A DNA stretch of 64,000 nucleotides from contig NZ_CP014229.1 in assembly GCF_001553605.1 (NCBI RefSeq), positions 1,392,501 through 1,456,500 of the forward strand. The letters are read 5' to 3'. Numbering within the stretch: the first letter of the stretch is position 1; every line of letters begins with the position of its first letter. Under the pieces are notes generated by a model. It did not search any database, was not told the DNA's origin, and saw only the letters and a program-made list of their open reading frames with translations. The translations under genes and the position numbers were made by a program. This document shows, one piece after another, positions 27,479 through 54,957 of the stretch. This DNA is from Desulfovibrio fairfieldensis (GTDB lineage Bacteria > Desulfobacterota > Desulfovibrionia > Desulfovibrionales > Desulfovibrionaceae).

Positions 27479-28909
27479 ATGGCACTGGAACTTCGTCAGC
27501 AATTGAAATTGGCTCAGCAACTGGTCATGACGCCGCAGTTACAGCAGGCCATCAAGCTGCTTCAGCTCTCGCGCGTGGAACTGCTGGAAACCGTGCAGCA
27601 GGAGATGCTGGACAATCCTTTTCTTGAGGAGCTCTCGGGTGATGAGTCTTCTTCGGATCAGGCCGCCCAGACAGAGCGCCGGGAGGCCGTTGAAGAAGAG
27701 GTCTACGACAAGGAACTCGCCAAGGATGCCTCGTGGGAGGACTATCTCGGCGAGTTCGCCAGCACTCCGCGCCAAGTACAGCCGCGTGACTTTGAAGCGG
27801 CTGAAGAAATTTCTCCTCTGGAAGCCCGTTATGCCGCCAAGCCCACATTGGAAGGGCATCTGCTCTGGCAGCTGCGCCTTTCCATGCTGACCGAGGCGCA
27901 AAAGGAAATCGGCGAGGTCATCATCGGCAATCTGGCTTCCTCCGGCTATTTGCAGGCCACCTTGGAAGAAATCGCGGAGATGACCACATCCACGCCCGAC
28001 GAGGTGCGGGCGGTACTGGAAAGAGTGCAGCTTTTTGATCCCATAGGGGTGGCCGCGCGCGACGCGCGCGAGTGTCTGCTGATCCAGCTGAAAAGTCTGA
28101 ACTATGACCGGGATCCCATTCTTCTCGATCTGGTCCAGTCTCACCTGGAAGATCTGGAGGCCAAGCGCTACAAGCCTCTGCTGCGCAAGTTCAAGCTGGA
28201 TATGGAGGAACTCAAGGAATATCTGAACATCATCCAGAGCCTTGATCCACTGCCCGGCGCCAGTTTCGGCGGCGGCGAACCCACCTATGTGAGCCCGGAC
28301 GTCTTTGTGTACAAGATGGGCGATGAATTCGTCATTCTGCTCAATGAAGACGGTTTGCCGCAGTTGCAGCTTTCCTCGCTCTGCCAGATGAATATGGGAT
28401 CTTCCTCGGATAAGGAAAAGGAATACTGTACGGAAAAAATGCGCTCGGCCTCCTGGCTGATCAAGAGCCTGTATCAACGCCAGCGTACGCTGTACAAGGT
28501 GGTGGAGAGCATTGTGCGCCACCAGCAGCCGTTTTTTGAAAGCGGCGTCACCAAACTGGCTCCGCTGATTCTAAAAGACATTGCCGACGATATCAGCATG
28601 CACGAATCAACCGTAAGCCGGATCACTACCAACAAATACGTGGCGACGCCCCACGGGATTTTTGAGCTGAAGTTCTTCTTTAACAGCGGCCTTGAGCTGG
28701 ACGACGGCAGCCAGGTCGGCTCGGAAAGCGTTAAGGCGCTGATCAAGAAGTTCATAGCCGATGAAGACTCCAAGGCCCCCTTGAGTGACGAACGCATCGG
28801 AGAAATGCTCAAGGAGCGCCTGAAAGTGAATATTGCCCGGCGTACGGTGGCCAAGTACCGCACGGCGCTGGACATTCCCTCGTCGTCACGGCGTAAGGAG
28901 CACTTCTGA
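27479..28909 (+). CDS. rpoN: RNA polymerase sigma-54 factor
   Basis: A 476-residue RpoN. Region I at the N-terminus is Gln/Leu-rich (ELRQQLKLAQQLVMTPQLQ), an acidic linker follows, the core-binding and HTH regions occupy the middle, and the RpoN box ARRTVAKYR is at residues 453-461. RpoN directs transcription from -24/-12 promoters and needs an ATP-driven activator. The start ATG matches the family. It heads rpoN-hpf-rapZ-PTS. The fliC promoter at 7.85 kb is a likely target. Confidence 0.97.
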   Translation: MALELRQQLKLAQQLVMTPQLQQAIKLLQLSRVELLETVQQEMLDNPFLEELSGDESSSDQAAQTERREAVEEEVYDKELAKDASWEDYLGEFASTPRQVQPRDFEAAEEISPLEARYAAKPTLEGHLLWQLRLSMLTEAQKEIGEVIIGNLASSGYLQATLEEIAEMTTSTPDEVRAVLERVQLFDPIGVAARDARECLLIQLKSLNYDRDPILLDLVQSHLEDLEAKRYKPLLRKFKLDMEELKEYLNIIQSLDPLPGASFGGGEPTYVSPDVFVYKMGDEFVILLNEDGLPQLQLSSLCQMNMGSSSDKEKEYCTEKMRSASWLIKSLYQRQRTLYKVVESIVRHQQPFFESGVTKLAPLILKDIADDISMHESTVSRITTNKYVATPHGIFELKFFFNSGLELDDGSQVGSESVKALIKKFIADEDSKAPLSDERIGEMLKERLKVNIARRTVAKYRTALDIPSSSRRKEHF

Positions 28910-28946: not shown

Positions 28947-29486
28947 ATGAATATCTCTTTCGCCTTCAAGAATTTTGAGGCCTCCGATCATTTGAAGAAG
29001 TATGCCCGCCGCCGCATGGAAAAGTTGGGGCGGTTTTATGGCAAGTCCGCGGGTCTGGAAGTAAGCGTCGTGCTGACGGTGGATAAATTCCGCCATCGTT
29101 GCGAAGTGACCGTTTCCGGCGAGGGCCTGCATATCAACGCCACCGAGCAGACCTCCGATATGTACGCGGCTATCGACCTTGTGACCGACAAGGTGGAAGC
29201 CCAGATCAAGCGTCAGGTGTCCCGCGTCAAGGAACAGCGCCGTAAGGCCCGCAATGCCGATGTGGACGTCTTTACCTACAATCTGGAAGCCCAGCCCGAG
29301 GAAAGTCAGACCGTGGTGGGCACGGACCGCTTCGCGCCAAAGCCGCTGCACCTGGATGAGGCGCTGATGCAACTGGATTCCATCGGCAGCGAATTTCTGG
29401 TCTTTCTCAATGCCGAAAGCAATCGCGTCAATGTGGTTTACCGACGGCGCACTACAGGCTACGCCCTGATTGATCCCGTGTTGTAG
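28947..29486 (+). CDS. hpf: Ribosome hibernation promoting factor, long form
   Basis: A 179-residue protein. Residues 1-100 are the HPF/RaiA domain (MNISFAFKNFEASDHLKKYARRRMEKL; MYAAIDLVTDKVEAQIKR), and residues ~120-179 are the C-terminal dimerisation domain of long-form HPF (KPLHLDEALMQLDSIGSEFLVF). It pairs 70S ribosomes into inactive dimers in stationary phase. ATG 28947 follows AAGGAGG. It lies 37 nt after rpoN, its usual partner. Confidence 0.95.
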   Translation: MNISFAFKNFEASDHLKKYARRRMEKLGRFYGKSAGLEVSVVLTVDKFRHRCEVTVSGEGLHINATEQTSDMYAAIDLVTDKVEAQIKRQVSRVKEQRRKARNADVDVFTYNLEAQPEESQTVVGTDRFAPKPLHLDEALMQLDSIGSEFLVFLNAESNRVNVVYRRRTTGYALIDPVL

Positions 29487-29508
29487 CCGTTCCGCCATAC
29501 TTTTTCCG

Positions 29509-29540
29509 CCGGGCCTGTCTTCGCACGAAGATCGGCCCGG
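29509..29540 (+). other. Hairpin in the hpf-rapZ gap
   Basis: CCGGGCC-GTCTTCG / CGAAGAT-GGCCCGG, a long stem without a T tract, between hpf and rapZ. It could attenuate, stabilise or be a processing site in the operon mRNA. Confidence 0.45.
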
Positions 29541-29562
29541 TGGTTCCCAGTGAAGTATACGT

Positions 29563-30516
29563 ATGAGCACGTCACAGCAGCCCCCCTGCCGCAGTCCGTC
29601 CGATCCGGATTCATCTGCTGACACGCCCAAAGTCGCCCATGATCGCCCTGTGCAGGTCTGTATTGTCACCGGTCTTTCCGGCGCGGGCAAAAGTACGGCC
29701 GTGCAGGTTTTTGAAGATCTGCGCTATTTCGCCGTGGACGGTCTGCCCGCAAGTCTGGCCCCGGAAATGGCCGCTATGATGGAACGCCCTTCCATGAGTC
29801 ATTTCATGGGCATTGCCTTGGGCATGGATATGCGTCAGAGCAATTTCCCGGATGAAATCAACGACGCATTGAGCGTTATGGCCGCCAAGGGTATCCGTCC
29901 GCTTTTGCTGTTTCTGGAGGCTGACGCGCAGGAGCTCATGCGCCGCTACGCCACCACCCGCCGCCCGCATCCGCTGGAGCGGGAGGGCATGGGCCTTGAA
30001 GCCGCCCTGGCCGCCGAACGCAACCGCCTGCGCCCTTTGCGGGAAATGGCCGACTTGGTTATCGACACTTCGCGTTTTTCCATCCATGACCTGCGGCGTT
30101 CCATTCAAAAGCGTTGGAGCGGCAACAAGGACAAATTGCGGGCTATCCGCGTCAATGTGATTTCCTTTGGCTTCAAGTACGGCGTGCCCCGAGAAGCCGA
30201 CACGGTTTTTGATCTGCGCTTTCTGCCCAACCCGTATTTTGTGGAAGAGCTGCGTCCCCTTTGCGGCAAGGACAAGGCCGTGGCCGATTATGTTTTCGCC
30301 TCGCCCAGCGCGGTGGAATTCCGCAAGAAACTGCTGGACCTGCTTTTTTTCATGTTGCCCCTGATGGAGGCCGAAGGCCGCTACCGGATTACCATCGCCG
30401 TGGGCTGCACCGGCGGGCGGCACCGCTCGGTGGCCATGGCCGAAGAATTGTCACAGGCGCTTCGCCAGGCGGACTACCCGACCTCTCTGGAGCACCGGCA
30501 CCTTGAACTTGGCTGA
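29563..30516 (+). CDS. rapZ: RapZ-type nucleotide-binding protein
   Basis: A 317-residue protein. Walker A GLSGAGKS at residues 37-44 after a ~30-residue polar N-terminal extension absent from E. coli RapZ; C-terminal signature [16 protein letters not shown] near 285-300 and the [23 protein letters not shown] block. In enterobacteria RapZ is an RNA adaptor for GlmZ decay and binds GlcN6P; that specific role cannot be assumed here. In the classical order hpf-ptsN-rapZ the ptsN gene lies between; it is missing here. Confidence 0.95.
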
Positions 30517-30550
30517 AAAAGCTGGCAGATTGTGAACCGTGAGGAATGCC

Positions 30551-30994
30551 ATGACGGATGAAAGCAAGACGACACAAGTCGGGATCATTGTGGTCTCCCA
30601 TGCGGACTACGGTTCTGCCATGCTGCGTACGGCCGAATTTATTTTGGGACCGCTGAGCGATTGCAGTTCCATCAGCGTTGACGTGGCGCATGAAGTTTCT
30701 GAAACAGTGCGCCGTTTGGACGACGCGGCCCAACGCCTGGATAAGGGCGCGGGCGTTATTATTCTTACGGATATGTTCGGCGGCACCCCCACCAACCTGG
30801 CCCTTTCCCTGTTGGGCAGCCATAAGGTGGAAGTGGTGACCGGCGTCAATCTGCCCATGCTTCTGAAGGTGTTCACGTCCCGCGACAAAGAGCTGAACGA
30901 ACTGGCCCGCATCGCCGGTGAAGCCGGGGCCAAAGGTATTGTGGTGGCCGGCAGCATGTTGCGGAACAAGGCCCGTGACAAAACGGGCGACTGA
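30551..30994 (+). CDS. PTS mannose-family EIIA protein
   Basis: A 147-residue EIIA-Man domain: IIVVSHADYGSAML carries the phosphorylated His (in VSHADYG), and DMFGGTPTNLALSLL is the family signature near residue 75. ATG 30551 follows GAGGAA; the GTG at 30539 is not needed. It accepts phosphate from HPr and passes it to EIIB. It sits 34 nt after rapZ and 3 nt before EIIB. With no complete transporter nearby, a regulatory role is plausible. Confidence 0.9.
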   Translation: MTDESKTTQVGIIVVSHADYGSAMLRTAEFILGPLSDCSSISVDVAHEVSETVRRLDDAAQRLDKGAGVIILTDMFGGTPTNLALSLLGSHKVEVVTGVNLPMLLKVFTSRDKELNELARIAGEAGAKGIVVAGSMLRNKARDKTGD

Positions 30995-30997
30995 GCA

Positions 30998-31456
30998 ATG
31001 TGGTTTCGTGTGGACAATCGCCTGGTACACGGGCAGGTGATCGAGGCATGGCTGCCATATACCGGCGCCAAACATCTGGTAGTGGCCAATGACGAACTGG
31101 CTACGGATCTATTACGCCGGCAGATTGTGGAGCTGGCCATACCCCAGCGCGTAATCACTCATTTTATCCCGGTGCGCGAACTGGCTGCCACACTGGATGC
31201 CTGCGGAGACGACAGCTTCGTGCTTTTCGCCAACTGCCAGGATGCCCGCCGGGCTTGTGATGAGGGCATTGAAATGCCGGTGCTCAATATGGGCAATCTG
31301 CACTACGGGCCGGACAAATTGCAATTACTGCCCCATGTGGCGCTTTCAGCACAGGACAGGGAAGATTTACGCATTATTCAGCAGCACCTTGTGCAACTGG
31401 ACTTCCGCTGCGTTCCCACTGAAAACGTACGAGGCTCTTATGATCAACTTTTCTGA
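30998..31456 (+). CDS. PTS mannose/sorbose-family EIIB protein
   Basis: A 152-residue EIIB-Man/Sor protein with the phospho-His motif RVDNRLVHGQVIEAW at residues 4-18 and the typical LNMGNLHYG block near 98. It passes phosphate from EIIA to the incoming sugar in complete systems. It follows EIIA by 3 nt; the following IIC frame starts 17 nt before its stop. Confidence 0.9.
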   Translation: MWFRVDNRLVHGQVIEAWLPYTGAKHLVVANDELATDLLRRQIVELAIPQRVITHFIPVRELAATLDACGDDSFVLFANCQDARRACDEGIEMPVLNMGNLHYGPDKLQLLPHVALSAQDREDLRIIQQHLVQLDFRCVPTENVRGSYDQLF

Positions 31457-32146
31457 GCTGATATACACGGGGCTTCCGTACGCTTTTTTTTTGTCCTGGC
31501 TGGGGCGGCTCGTTCCTCATGCATCATCGGCCTGCTGGACAGGCCCATATGCCTCGCGCTGATCACGGGCTTTTACACCTCTGATTGGGCTCTGGCGCTC
31601 TCACTCGGCATCATTCTTGAATTGCTCTGGCTGGATGTGTTGGAGTTGGGCAGCGTAGTGCCTCCCTTCGGCAGCCTGAGCTTTCTGCTGCTTTTTCCTC
31701 TGGCCTCGCATTTCGGGCTGAACCGGCCGGGTCCTCTTTTGTTGCCCCTGATACTGGTCATTCTGGCCGCCTATTTGGGCGGTTTTATGGAGCGCAGCTT
31801 GCGCATCCATGAAAATTATTTGGTGGATAGGGTAGAAGCCTGGTGCGCCGGTGATTGTTTTGCCCTTACGCCCGGTCAAGCTGTTCTGCATGTTGTTTTG
31901 CTTCGGGCCTTCTGGCAGTTCATGCTGTACGTCGTATGTTACGCCCTGTTATTTTGCCTGATCGCCGTGCTGTCGGCGCGCCAGGCCCTGCCGCAACTGT
32001 CGATACTGAGCTGGCCCATGCTGTACGGGGCGGCCCTGATGGGCGCGGTACTTTCGTTGCGAACCCGACGCGCGTACATGGTGTTGGCCTGCAGCCTGGG
32101 AGCCTTGGCCCTGCTGATCTGGGCCGGACAGAAAAGCCTGCCCTGA
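31440..32146 (+). CDS. PTS mannose-family EIIC protein, reading frame broken at a T9 run
   Basis: The frame starts at ATG 31440 with GAGG upstream and reads MINFSELIYTGLPYAFF, then runs out of frame and stops at 31562. The rest of the protein continues in the -1 frame to 32146: GLLDRPICLALITG, ELLWLDVLELGSVVPPFG and several hydrophobic segments, which is the EIIC-Man pattern. The two halves join exactly at nine T (31484-31492); ten T would give one ~235-residue membrane protein. It may be a true mutation, a phase-variable or slippage site, or a sequencing error. No EIID gene follows. Confidence 0.8.
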
Positions 32147-32233
32147 GGGCTCGGGATACCGTTCTCCCAGTGTTGCACGCCCCGTTTTGTCCGATACGGA
32201 GGGACAAGACCGAGCCTCCAGCAGGCCCTGTTC

Positions 32234-32262
32234 TTGACATGCGTAAAAAGAGCCCCTACAAG
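32234..32262 (+). promoter_or_regulatory. Promoter of tRNA-Arg
   Basis: TTGACA, 17-nt spacer, TACAAG; the start site would be 2-4 nt before the mature tRNA 5' end at 32272. An exact -35 and four of six -10 bases match the sigma-70 consensus. Confidence 0.7.
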
Positions 32263-32271
32263 TGGGGCGAC

Positions 32272-32348
32272 GCGCTCGTAGCTCAGTTGGATAGAGCGAT
32301 AGCCTCCTAAGCTGTAGGCCGCAGGTTCGATTCCTGCCGGGCGCACCA
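32272..32348 (+). tRNA. tRNA-Arg (anticodon CCU)
   Basis: A 77-nt tRNA with encoded CCA. Acceptor GCGCTCG / CGGGCGC (with a U-G pair), D arm GCTCAGTTGGATAGAGC, anticodon stem ATAGC / GCTGT with loop CTCCTAA (anticodon CCT), T arm GCAGGTTCGATTCCTGC. It reads AGG codons. No integration sign is seen at its 3' end. Confidence 0.95.
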
Positions 32349-32432
32349 GTCATGAACGCAGGCAGTTGCATTTTTGCGGCTGCCTGTTTTTTTATGCGGC
32401 CGGCAATTCAAGCGTCGGAAAAGGGAACACTC

Positions 32433-33464
32433 ATGGCGAATACCGAAATCCGGCTTTATTGCTTTATCTTCTGCGTCGTTGTGGCCTGCTGTTTGTCTCC
32501 TCTGGCGGTCTGGAGCCGGACCGATAAGCCAGCCAACATTGAGGATGCATACACTTTTGAACATCTCTGGCAGGGCACGCCCGCCGATCAGCGGCGTGCC
32601 CTGCCCAACAACATCGCCCCACCGGAACGGCGTCTGCCGCATATGCAGTTGCCGCCCCTGCCGCCTCAGGAAGAGGGGACCATTCGGCGGGTGATGCTGC
32701 CTGAGGGCACGAAGGCCGTGGCATTGACATTTGATCTCTGCGAACTGGCAACGACCACCACGGGCTATGACGCGGACGCCATCAATTTCCTGCGGCGCGA
32801 ACATATCCCGGCCACGCTGTTCATGGGCGGCAAATGGATGCGCACCCATGCGGAGCGCGCCAAGCAGCTCATGGCCGACCCTCTGTTCGAGATCGGCAAC
32901 CATGCCTGGTCGCACGGTAATTTCGGGATTATGGATCCGCAAAACATGCGTGATCAGGTTCTCTGGACGCAGGCGGAATATGAAATTCTGCGCGGGGAAC
33001 TCCTCCGGGGCGCAGCGGAAAAAGGCGCATCCTTGCCGGACATAGCCGCTGTACCGAATTTGTTTCGCCTGCCGTACGGGCGCTGTACGGATCAGGCCCT
33101 GGCACTCCTGGCCCATCTGGGGCTGCAGGTCATCCAATGGGATGTGGTGGCTGAGACCATTGCGGATAACAGCCGTCCTGAACTGGCTGCGGATGTGGCA
33201 CGCCGGGTGCGTCCCGGTTCCATTCTTCTCTTTCATGCCAATCGCGTGCCCAAGGGCACAGCGGCCTTGTTGTCAGGTGTGGTGCGTGAATTACGCGGCA
33301 GAGGATATCATTTCGTGACTGCGGGAAAGCTGTTGGCCATGGGGCAGCCTTGGCGCACGCGAGACGGTTACTTTAACAAACCCGGCGACAATAAGGCTCT
33401 GGACACTCGCTTTGGCGTGGACGGCACTGGTCGGAGGGCGTCCACAAAAGGAAAGGCGGAGTAG
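32433..33464 (+). CDS. Polysaccharide deacetylase family protein, exported
   Basis: A 343-residue protein. ATG 32433 with AAGGGA upstream gives an N-terminal hydrophobic segment (residues ~8-28) that is a signal peptide or anchor. The NodB domain follows: motif 1 is TFDLCE instead of TFDDG, motif 2 is NHAWSHG (metal-binding His), then RLPYGRC and a late FHANRVPKGT block. The first Asp is kept and the second replaced, as in the TFDAC-type branch. Likely removes acetyl groups from a cell-envelope or surface glycan. Downstream of tRNA-Arg, monocistronic. Confidence 0.85.
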   Translation: MANTEIRLYCFIFCVVVACCLSPLAVWSRTDKPANIEDAYTFEHLWQGTPADQRRALPNNIAPPERRLPHMQLPPLPPQEEGTIRRVMLPEGTKAVALTFDLCELATTTTGYDADAINFLRREHIPATLFMGGKWMRTHAERAKQLMADPLFEIGNHAWSHGNFGIMDPQNMRDQVLWTQAEYEILRGELLRGAAEKGASLPDIAAVPNLFRLPYGRCTDQALALLAHLGLQVIQWDVVAETIADNSRPELAADVARRVRPGSILLFHANRVPKGTAALLSGVVRELRGRGYHFVTAGKLLAMGQPWRTRDGYFNKPGDNKALDTRFGVDGTGRRASTKGKAE

Positions 33465-34133
33465 CCGCCCCATCACCGGATTCTCAGTTGTTCTCTGAAC
33501 ACCGGTTCCGGTGCGGTTTGTGCTATCCCATGGGAGCGTTGTCTCCGTTTTTTCTCAAAACTTTTTTATCTTCTTTGACCTTTTCCTTCACGGATCGCAT
33601 AGATCCAATCCTGGGGGAATCATCTGAAACGTATAATAATCTATATTTATATTCAAATTTTTAATATTCCTAATTTGCTAAAATAGTTCAAAAAATATAG
33701 ATTTAACGCAAGTGTGACAATTTTTTCCGGCTTCTGTCTTTATTGAAAGGCGTTAGCCTATAGGGATTGTTTTTGCTGCCGATAGGATTGGAAAAGTTTT
33801 TCATAAATATAATCTTAGTAAAAAACTATTCTTTGAGCGTAGGATATAATTTGGGGCCAGCGGGATAGTTGGGATTGCCTCGTTTGGCTTGACCGCCATA
33901 AGTTAGCGGTTGGTGACGCAGACGGAGAAGAAAAAAGTGTTTTTGCACTGGATCGACCAACGATCCGTTTTCTCTATACCCAATAGTATAACTGTGCGGT
34001 TATGCGCTGTCGTTGTCAAACAGTGTGTGGCTGTGCTCAGAATGAGGAGGTTTTTTTGCTGTCCATGTCTGGGAAATATACGGCATATTTCTCAGGTGTT
34101 CTTTAATGCGCTATCCGAAAGAGGTAAAACATC
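33465..34133. other. AT-rich intergenic region upstream of the MCP
   Basis: About 670 bases, markedly more AT-rich than the surroundings between 33600 and 33860. It contains an 11-bp inverted repeat AATCTATATTT (33639-33649) / AAATATAGATT (33694-33704) and a sigma-28-like promoter. An ORF at 33910-34209 has no ribosome binding site and unlikely composition and is not called. No tRNA or known riboswitch recognised. Confidence 0.5.
33759..33785 (+). promoter_or_regulatory. Sigma-28-like promoter candidate of the MCP gene
   Basis: TATAGGGA, 11-nt spacer, GCCGATAG. The -10-like box matches GCCGATAA at 7 of 8 bases, the -35-like box only partly. It lies about 350 nt before the receptor start. FliA control of receptor genes is common. 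Confidence 0.35.
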
Positions 34134-54578: not shown

Positions 54579-54957
54579 TGGTGGAGGCGGGGGGAATCGA
54601 ACCCCCGTCCGCGAATACTCCACGCGAAGCATCTACAGGCTTAGGCCAGGATTAAATCTCGCCGCGCTGGTGGCCCCTGACCAAGCGCAACGCGGCAAGC
54701 CCGCCGGTGACATTCTCACGGAAAACCCCGGCGAGCGCCGGTTTCCGCCAGCCTGATAAATGTCGCCGCTCGGGATTATCAGGCGTGGTCCCGAGCAGCG
54801 CGACCGGCTATGCGGTCAGTTGCCTCGCTGACTAGGCAGCGTAAGCGTAGTCGTAATCGTTGTTGGCAATTACTGTGTTGCCGCTTTTTTACGAGGCCAG
54901 CGGCGCCTCGGCCTGCCGCTCCGGCTTCTACATCCACGTCGAAACCAGTGCGCCCCC
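54579..54957 (-). ncRNA. ssrA: Transfer-messenger RNA
   Basis: One-piece tmRNA of 379 nt. The 5' GGGGGCG pairs with CGCCTCC before ACCA; the T arm is GGGGGTTCGATTCCCCC. The tag frame reads GCC AAC AAC GAT TAC GAC TAC GCT TAC GCT GCC TAG, peptide ANNDYDYAYAA. It rescues stalled ribosomes with SmpB and marks the products for proteolysis. Confidence 0.96.

Follow-up and report, generated by a model that had tools for sequence, protein, structure and literature searches.

Does a run of nine T's that throws a predicted PTS permease gene out of frame mark a broken gene, a switch, or a programmed site at which the frame is regained during expression? The locus lies on contig NZ_CP014229.1 of Desulfovibrio fairfieldensis, within a stretch of 64,000 nucleotides that was analysed as a whole and is called the window here. 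A first-pass annotation, made from the letters alone, had proposed that a gene for the membrane component IIC is split at this run and that slippage there could turn the gene on and off or express it at a fixed low ratio. The features concerned are these, in window coordinates:

27479..28909, plus strand: RpoN (sigma-54)
28947..29486, plus strand: Hpf / sigma-54 modulation protein
29563..30516, plus strand: RapZ
30551..30994, plus strand: PTS IIA (EIIA-man), intact
30998..31456, plus strand: PTS IIB (PTSIIB_sorb in Pfam), intact
31440..31562, plus strand: IIC start frame, 15 codons to the run, past which it leaves the IIC frame and ends at a stop
31484..31492, plus strand: run of nine T's, the candidate frame-change site, with this exact length in 160 of 174 species
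31493..32146, plus strand: IIC body frame, 217 amino acids and a stop, its codons continuing from the TTT TTT TTT of the run
32272-32348: tRNA-Arg, 3′ of IIC

The gene order 5′ of IIC is rpoN-hpf-rapZ-IIA-IIB. The earlier statement that IIA and IIB are intact agrees with Pfam, and the description of the split gene was borne out in its details. A GAGG at 31431-31434, inside IIB, provides the ribosome binding site that had been claimed for the IIC start codon, ATG 31440, and the TGA stop of IIB (31454-31456) gives the two genes an overlap of 17 nt. From the ATG the start frame reads MINFSELIYTGLPYAFFLSW... and enters the nine T's in the phase NNT TTT TTT TTG, which takes it out of the IIC frame and on to a stop ending at 31562. 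An IIC-like membrane protein is encoded 3′ of the run in the -1 frame, as had been read, and this frame is open until the stop at 32146. One extra T would give a protein of 235 residues (15 from the start frame, the three Phe of the run and 217 from the body), the approximate length first proposed. Public predictions of IIC (31493-32146 in the window) mostly start inside the body. Annotation thus truncates or misses the permease, and surveys could wrongly call these PTSs permease-less. An Rfam search of 29000-34000 at gathering score returned only tRNA; further along, the window carries a tmRNA gene (54579-54957, minus strand, tag ANNDYDYAYAA).

The identity of the body protein was assessed by sequence and by predicted fold. 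The window's IIC body scores 15.5 bits against Pfam EII-Sor, under the cut-off of 26.3; the EII-Sor family search of its own genome gave no match, and NCBIfam had nothing above cut-off for the IIC body. EII-Sor is matched at E <= 0.01 in 17 of 18 family members, and a profile of the IIC relatives matches the E. coli ManY chains 7dyr and 6k1h (E about 6e-6), which places the protein in the mannose/sorbose family of PTS IIC. The model of the body has a mean pLDDT of 89.9, and its nine best PDB matches are all Man-PTS chains, with TM scores of 0.45-0.58 by query length and a best E of 5.7e-3 (none <= 0.001), so that the Man-PTS membrane fold is recovered at modest scores. The genome also encodes IID, HPr and EI, grouped far from IIA-IIB-IIC (L244:7727-10769, genome C1 about 2309726-2312768), and the PTS would therefore be complete if IIC were made.

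The host genome (3.7 Mb) holds 24 runs of at least nine T's, counted on both strands with overlapping matches merged. Two runs of eleven T's occur elsewhere in it, at C1 117428-117438 (L245:529-539) and at C1 3637299-3637309. To judge the site in the IIC gene, we compared it among relatives. The IIC body was found in 111 of 149 genomes in a family search and in 109 of 120 in an order search, and the run length and frame of each locus were read by script; the site was scored as shared where a locus had exactly nine T's and an offset-frame start codon reading openly into the run. The resulting set of 174 genomes has one genome per species, which makes the tract comparison one between species. 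Three loci were excluded before counting: L239 (G014), a partial C-terminal match, and L191 and L234, whose contig ends cut the start region. L031 is the same contig as L003 and L032 the same as L004, and the named records L033-L035, all three with nine T's, are not part of the 174.

Of the 174 assessable species, 160 share the exact run and its frame offset. They belong to 43 of 47 genera and represent every one of the six families sampled from the order (108 of 120 species in the window's family, 52 of 54 in the five others). These loci span 30 to 68% GC, and the phase of the run is identical across all 160. Their start codon, as chosen by a script that prefers ATG, is ATG in 154 and GTG in six, and in 148 of them the run begins 38-56 nt from the start. 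A run of ten T's was found in none of the 174 genomes. Nine T's at the identical place in 160 assemblies, the window's included, are not a matter of chance. IIA and IIB lie upstream of IIC in 177 of 179 loci; contig ends truncate the remaining two. Outside the order, all 23 homologues examined start in frame and have no T run longer than six; they come from 23 of 46 matched genomes, those with loci returned.

To examine selection on the two frames, we counted differences in 196 close within-genus pairs; these have branches in common and are not independent observations. Ahead of the run, differences in the start frame at codon positions 1, 2 and 3 number 371, 140 and 511, so that this frame too carries a codon-position bias in the relatives. 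In the body frame after the run the figures are 1516, 698 and 5215, and in the first 30 nt after it they are already 201, 108 and 612. Bias on both sides indicates that both halves are selected as protein and that the frame change is located at the run. The residues on either side of the run align with those of in-frame homologues (L203 beside L202 and L097 beside L092 are examples). At the run itself, all 160 loci spell each of the three Phe codons as TTT. The other Phe codons of the IIC gene comprise 1251 TTT and 1180 TTC (49% TTC) and, at the 59 loci above 60% GC, 284 TTT and 547 TTC.

The site has sequence features by which transcriptional slippage is recognised: a run of at least nine A or T stands at the frame change (the nine T's at 31484-31492), and both its length and the shifted frame downstream are conserved, with 14 exceptions. 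Available portions of PMC5009743 and PMC1088944 document slippage on nine A or T in bacteria, and those of PMC1088944 name, as the sign of purposeful transcriptional slippage, a nine-long run whose length does not vary from one homologue to the next. From the sequence comparison, we put at about 0.7 the probability that the run in this predicted IIC gene is a frame-change site, programmed and conserved, where RNA polymerase is likely to slip so that a fraction of the transcripts gains one U. Full-length IIC would then be encoded by the +1 U transcripts only, and the unslipped message would yield a stub. The +1 U messages would probably be a minority share; slippage levels at tested sites in other bacteria are 15-55% in the cases listed in the accessible part of PMC4256274. 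The purpose may be to keep permease levels low relative to IIA and IIB and in constant proportion to them, which would make the arrangement dosage control and not a broken gene.

Of the two outcomes first proposed for slippage, polymerase slippage at a predicted fixed ratio is supported by the sequences, given the exact run and fixed offset in 160 of 174 species. The on/off or phase-variable switch is not supported: the tract is constant, ten T's occur in 0 of 174, and variation is seen in one subclade only and, judging from protein, in metagenome ORFs. A more speculative extension, which we regard as doubtful, is that the slip rate reports the UTP level or the speed of transcription and so ties permease dosage to the state of the cell without a regulator protein. 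The polymerase would in that case decide message by message, across the order, whether a regulatory PTS receives its membrane half.

The constancy of such a slippage gate has its counterexamples, namely 13 in-frame homologues, one locus with eight T's and two full-length metagenome ORFs. Twelve of the 13 in-frame homologues among the 174 have no run of more than eight T's (L021, L025, L059, L060, L061, L077, L078, L109, L112, L115, L201 and L202). L092 (G090) retains nine T's, with an A directly 5′ of the run and the body frame open from an ATG; slippage at that locus would lessen the full-length product instead of enabling it. L229 (G215) has eight T's, and its body frame opens from another ATG. 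On a tree of 84 order loci and seven outgroup loci, built by a quick method with deep forks open and with L229 and L092 scored as intact, the in-frame rows are scattered among the rows with nine T's and 11 changes between the frame-changed and in-frame states are required, although change counts alone cannot separate gain from loss of the frame change. The branch of the order against the outgroup has 99% SH-aLRT support. In the most economical history, the frame change arose once, in the ancestor of the order, and was then lost repeatedly.

These changes of state bear on a fair rival to the dosage purpose that has the same mechanism. Slippage may be real and bring no benefit: an ancestral indel would have been tolerated since slippage supplied enough protein, and the nine T's would now persist for no other reason than that most changes would abolish IIC. 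The roughly 11 changes on the tree show that the gene can be tolerated in an uninterrupted form, and 'pseudo-pseudogenes' of this kind are described in the available text of PMC1088944. However, a single and presumably frequent +T mutation would restore the frame, and yet ten T's are found in none of 174 genomes, while the run is of eight or fewer in 12 of the 13 in-frame homologues. We therefore hold an accident of this sort to be the less likely account, though one that deserves to be taken seriously.

The main rival as to mechanism is programmed -1 ribosomal frameshifting, in which IIC would be made from the unmodified message by a shift on U_UUU_UUU. Such a shift is possible because the run holds, in phase with the start frame, a heptamer of the form X_XXY_YYZ (T_TTT_TTT), and the accessible part of PMC4066793 states that stimulatory structures are not always present at prokaryotic sites. 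The heptamer, however, takes up only the first to seventh T, and the eighth and ninth, which it does not need, are nevertheless fixed in 160 of 160 loci. Shine-Dalgarno-like (SD-like) motifs stand ahead of the run at 34 of 160 loci, a number within the control range (mean 22.8, range 1-60), and reach at least half of the loci in only eight of 43 genera. The 40-nt windows adjoining the run show no excess folding in the 70 of 160 loci analysed (at most two per genus), and no RNA structure adjoining the run was found in these 70 loci. Windows starting +60 to +180 nt downstream of the run have mildly negative folding z values (-0.39 to -0.61). No conserved frameshift stimulator, either an upstream SD or a downstream structure, was thus seen beside the run in the loci of the order. 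The TTT codons fixed in triplicate despite the dispensable ninth T, the SD-like motifs at control frequency and the lack of excess folding next to the run all favour the polymerase over the ribosome as the slipping machine, and we consider a ribosomal shift improbable.

Two further routes to the body protein were considered and rejected as general explanations. Readthrough of the IIB stop into the body frame would be conceivable in the window, where the two share a frame, but IIB is in the body frame at only 49 of 161 loci with nine T's, so readthrough is not general. As for an internal start, the window's body frame has no ATG, GTG or TTG between its upstream stop and TTG 31622, 43 residues in, and a start there would lose four residues that vary little or not at all within the family (R7, R17, P18 and E43). 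Among the 160 loci with nine T's, 35 have a start codon of the body frame (ATG in four) in the 75 nt that precede the run, and internal initiation may occur at those 35.

Phase variation, in which replication slippage in the tract would turn IIC on and off between cells, is very improbable. The tract is nine T's long in 160 of 174 species and ten in none, in a comparison between species with one genome each, so that the length variation expected of a phase-variable tract is not seen between species. The nearest approach to it is the T8 of G215 against the T9 of its relative G220, together with three metagenome proteins (P0011, P0012 and P0036) that suggest other tract lengths, as judged from protein. 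L229 (G215) and L231 (G220) both belong to relatives of the window's genus, and their difference may be true variation or assembly noise. P0011 and P0012 are full-length IIC ORFs that read through FFF; their DNA may have ten T's or a run interrupted by a TTC codon. A search with the 60 N-terminal residues of P0011, reaching close relatives only, had P0011 and P0012 as its sole matches. P0036, from the G215/G220 lineage, reads at the protein level as if its run were of eleven T's.

An assembly error or a decaying pseudogene can be dismissed: gene callers do truncate IIC, and two of the three named rows among 59 matches are called hypothetical protein, but the same nine T's stand in 160 separate assemblies, which refutes an error unless all share it, and third-position bias on both sides, open body frames, a confident membrane fold and the lack of any further decay in relatives speak against a dying gene.

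The locus is therefore best described not as a switch but as a programmed frame change found across the order, for which slippage of RNA polymerase is the most likely mechanism; this is a wider claim than the one first made from the window. Santana and Crasnier-Mednansky reportedly treated the PTS of D. vulgaris Hildenborough in 2006. Among the titles and opening parts of abstracts listed in searches of the literature, none reports the T9 site in IIC. The available portions of PMC3711429 and PMC5009743 contain no mention of Desulfovibrio, PTS or phosphotransferase, and those of PMC1088944 none of Desulfovibrio or PTS; the main text of PMC4641369, on sigma-54 in D. vulgaris, mentions neither PTS nor frameshift, and PMC13008892 has EIIC only within a general list of gene products from another enrichment. 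In the literature examined, as far as its accessible text goes, functional slippage sites belong to mobile elements, secretion genes and dnaX. The site described here sits next to rpoN in a PTS cluster of the chromosome and keeps its length throughout an order (160 of 174 species). The species with nine T's, the roughly 11 changes of state and the in-frame outgroup form a natural series for testing what purpose slippage serves.

Several known systems resemble parts of this arrangement. For the slippage sites, the likenesses and differences are drawn from the accessible text of the sources cited. The A9 of Thermus thermophilus dnaX is also a nine-long homopolymer in a cellular gene where polymerase slippage sets the frame (PMC1088944). 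There, however, the run is of A and not T, and the unslipped product is full-length and the slipped one short, whereas the unslipped IIC message would give only a stub. Closer in outcome are Shigella mxiE and spa13 and Citrobacter rodentium tssM1, in which slippage at 15-55% joins two frames within a single gene (PMC4256274; PMC5009743). They are secretion genes, in contrast to an exact run kept order-wide in a PTS permease gene, and the authors of the tssM work regarded such slippage sites as uncommon and identified a single further one, in Yersinia (PMC5009743). In IS elements, a conserved run of nine A's likewise lets slippage fuse two ORFs, orfA and orfB (PMC1088944), but these elements are mobile and the A run varies from 8 to 10 in some, while IIC belongs to a core chromosomal operon. 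With regard to the protein, ManY (6k1h, 7dyr) is the nearest counterpart, through the profile match, the best fold matches, the adjoining IIA and IIB and the presence of IID in the genome. The IIC protein is divergent and has about 235 residues, where the ManY chains have 266-274; IID is here unlinked, and the IIC gene is split by nine T's.
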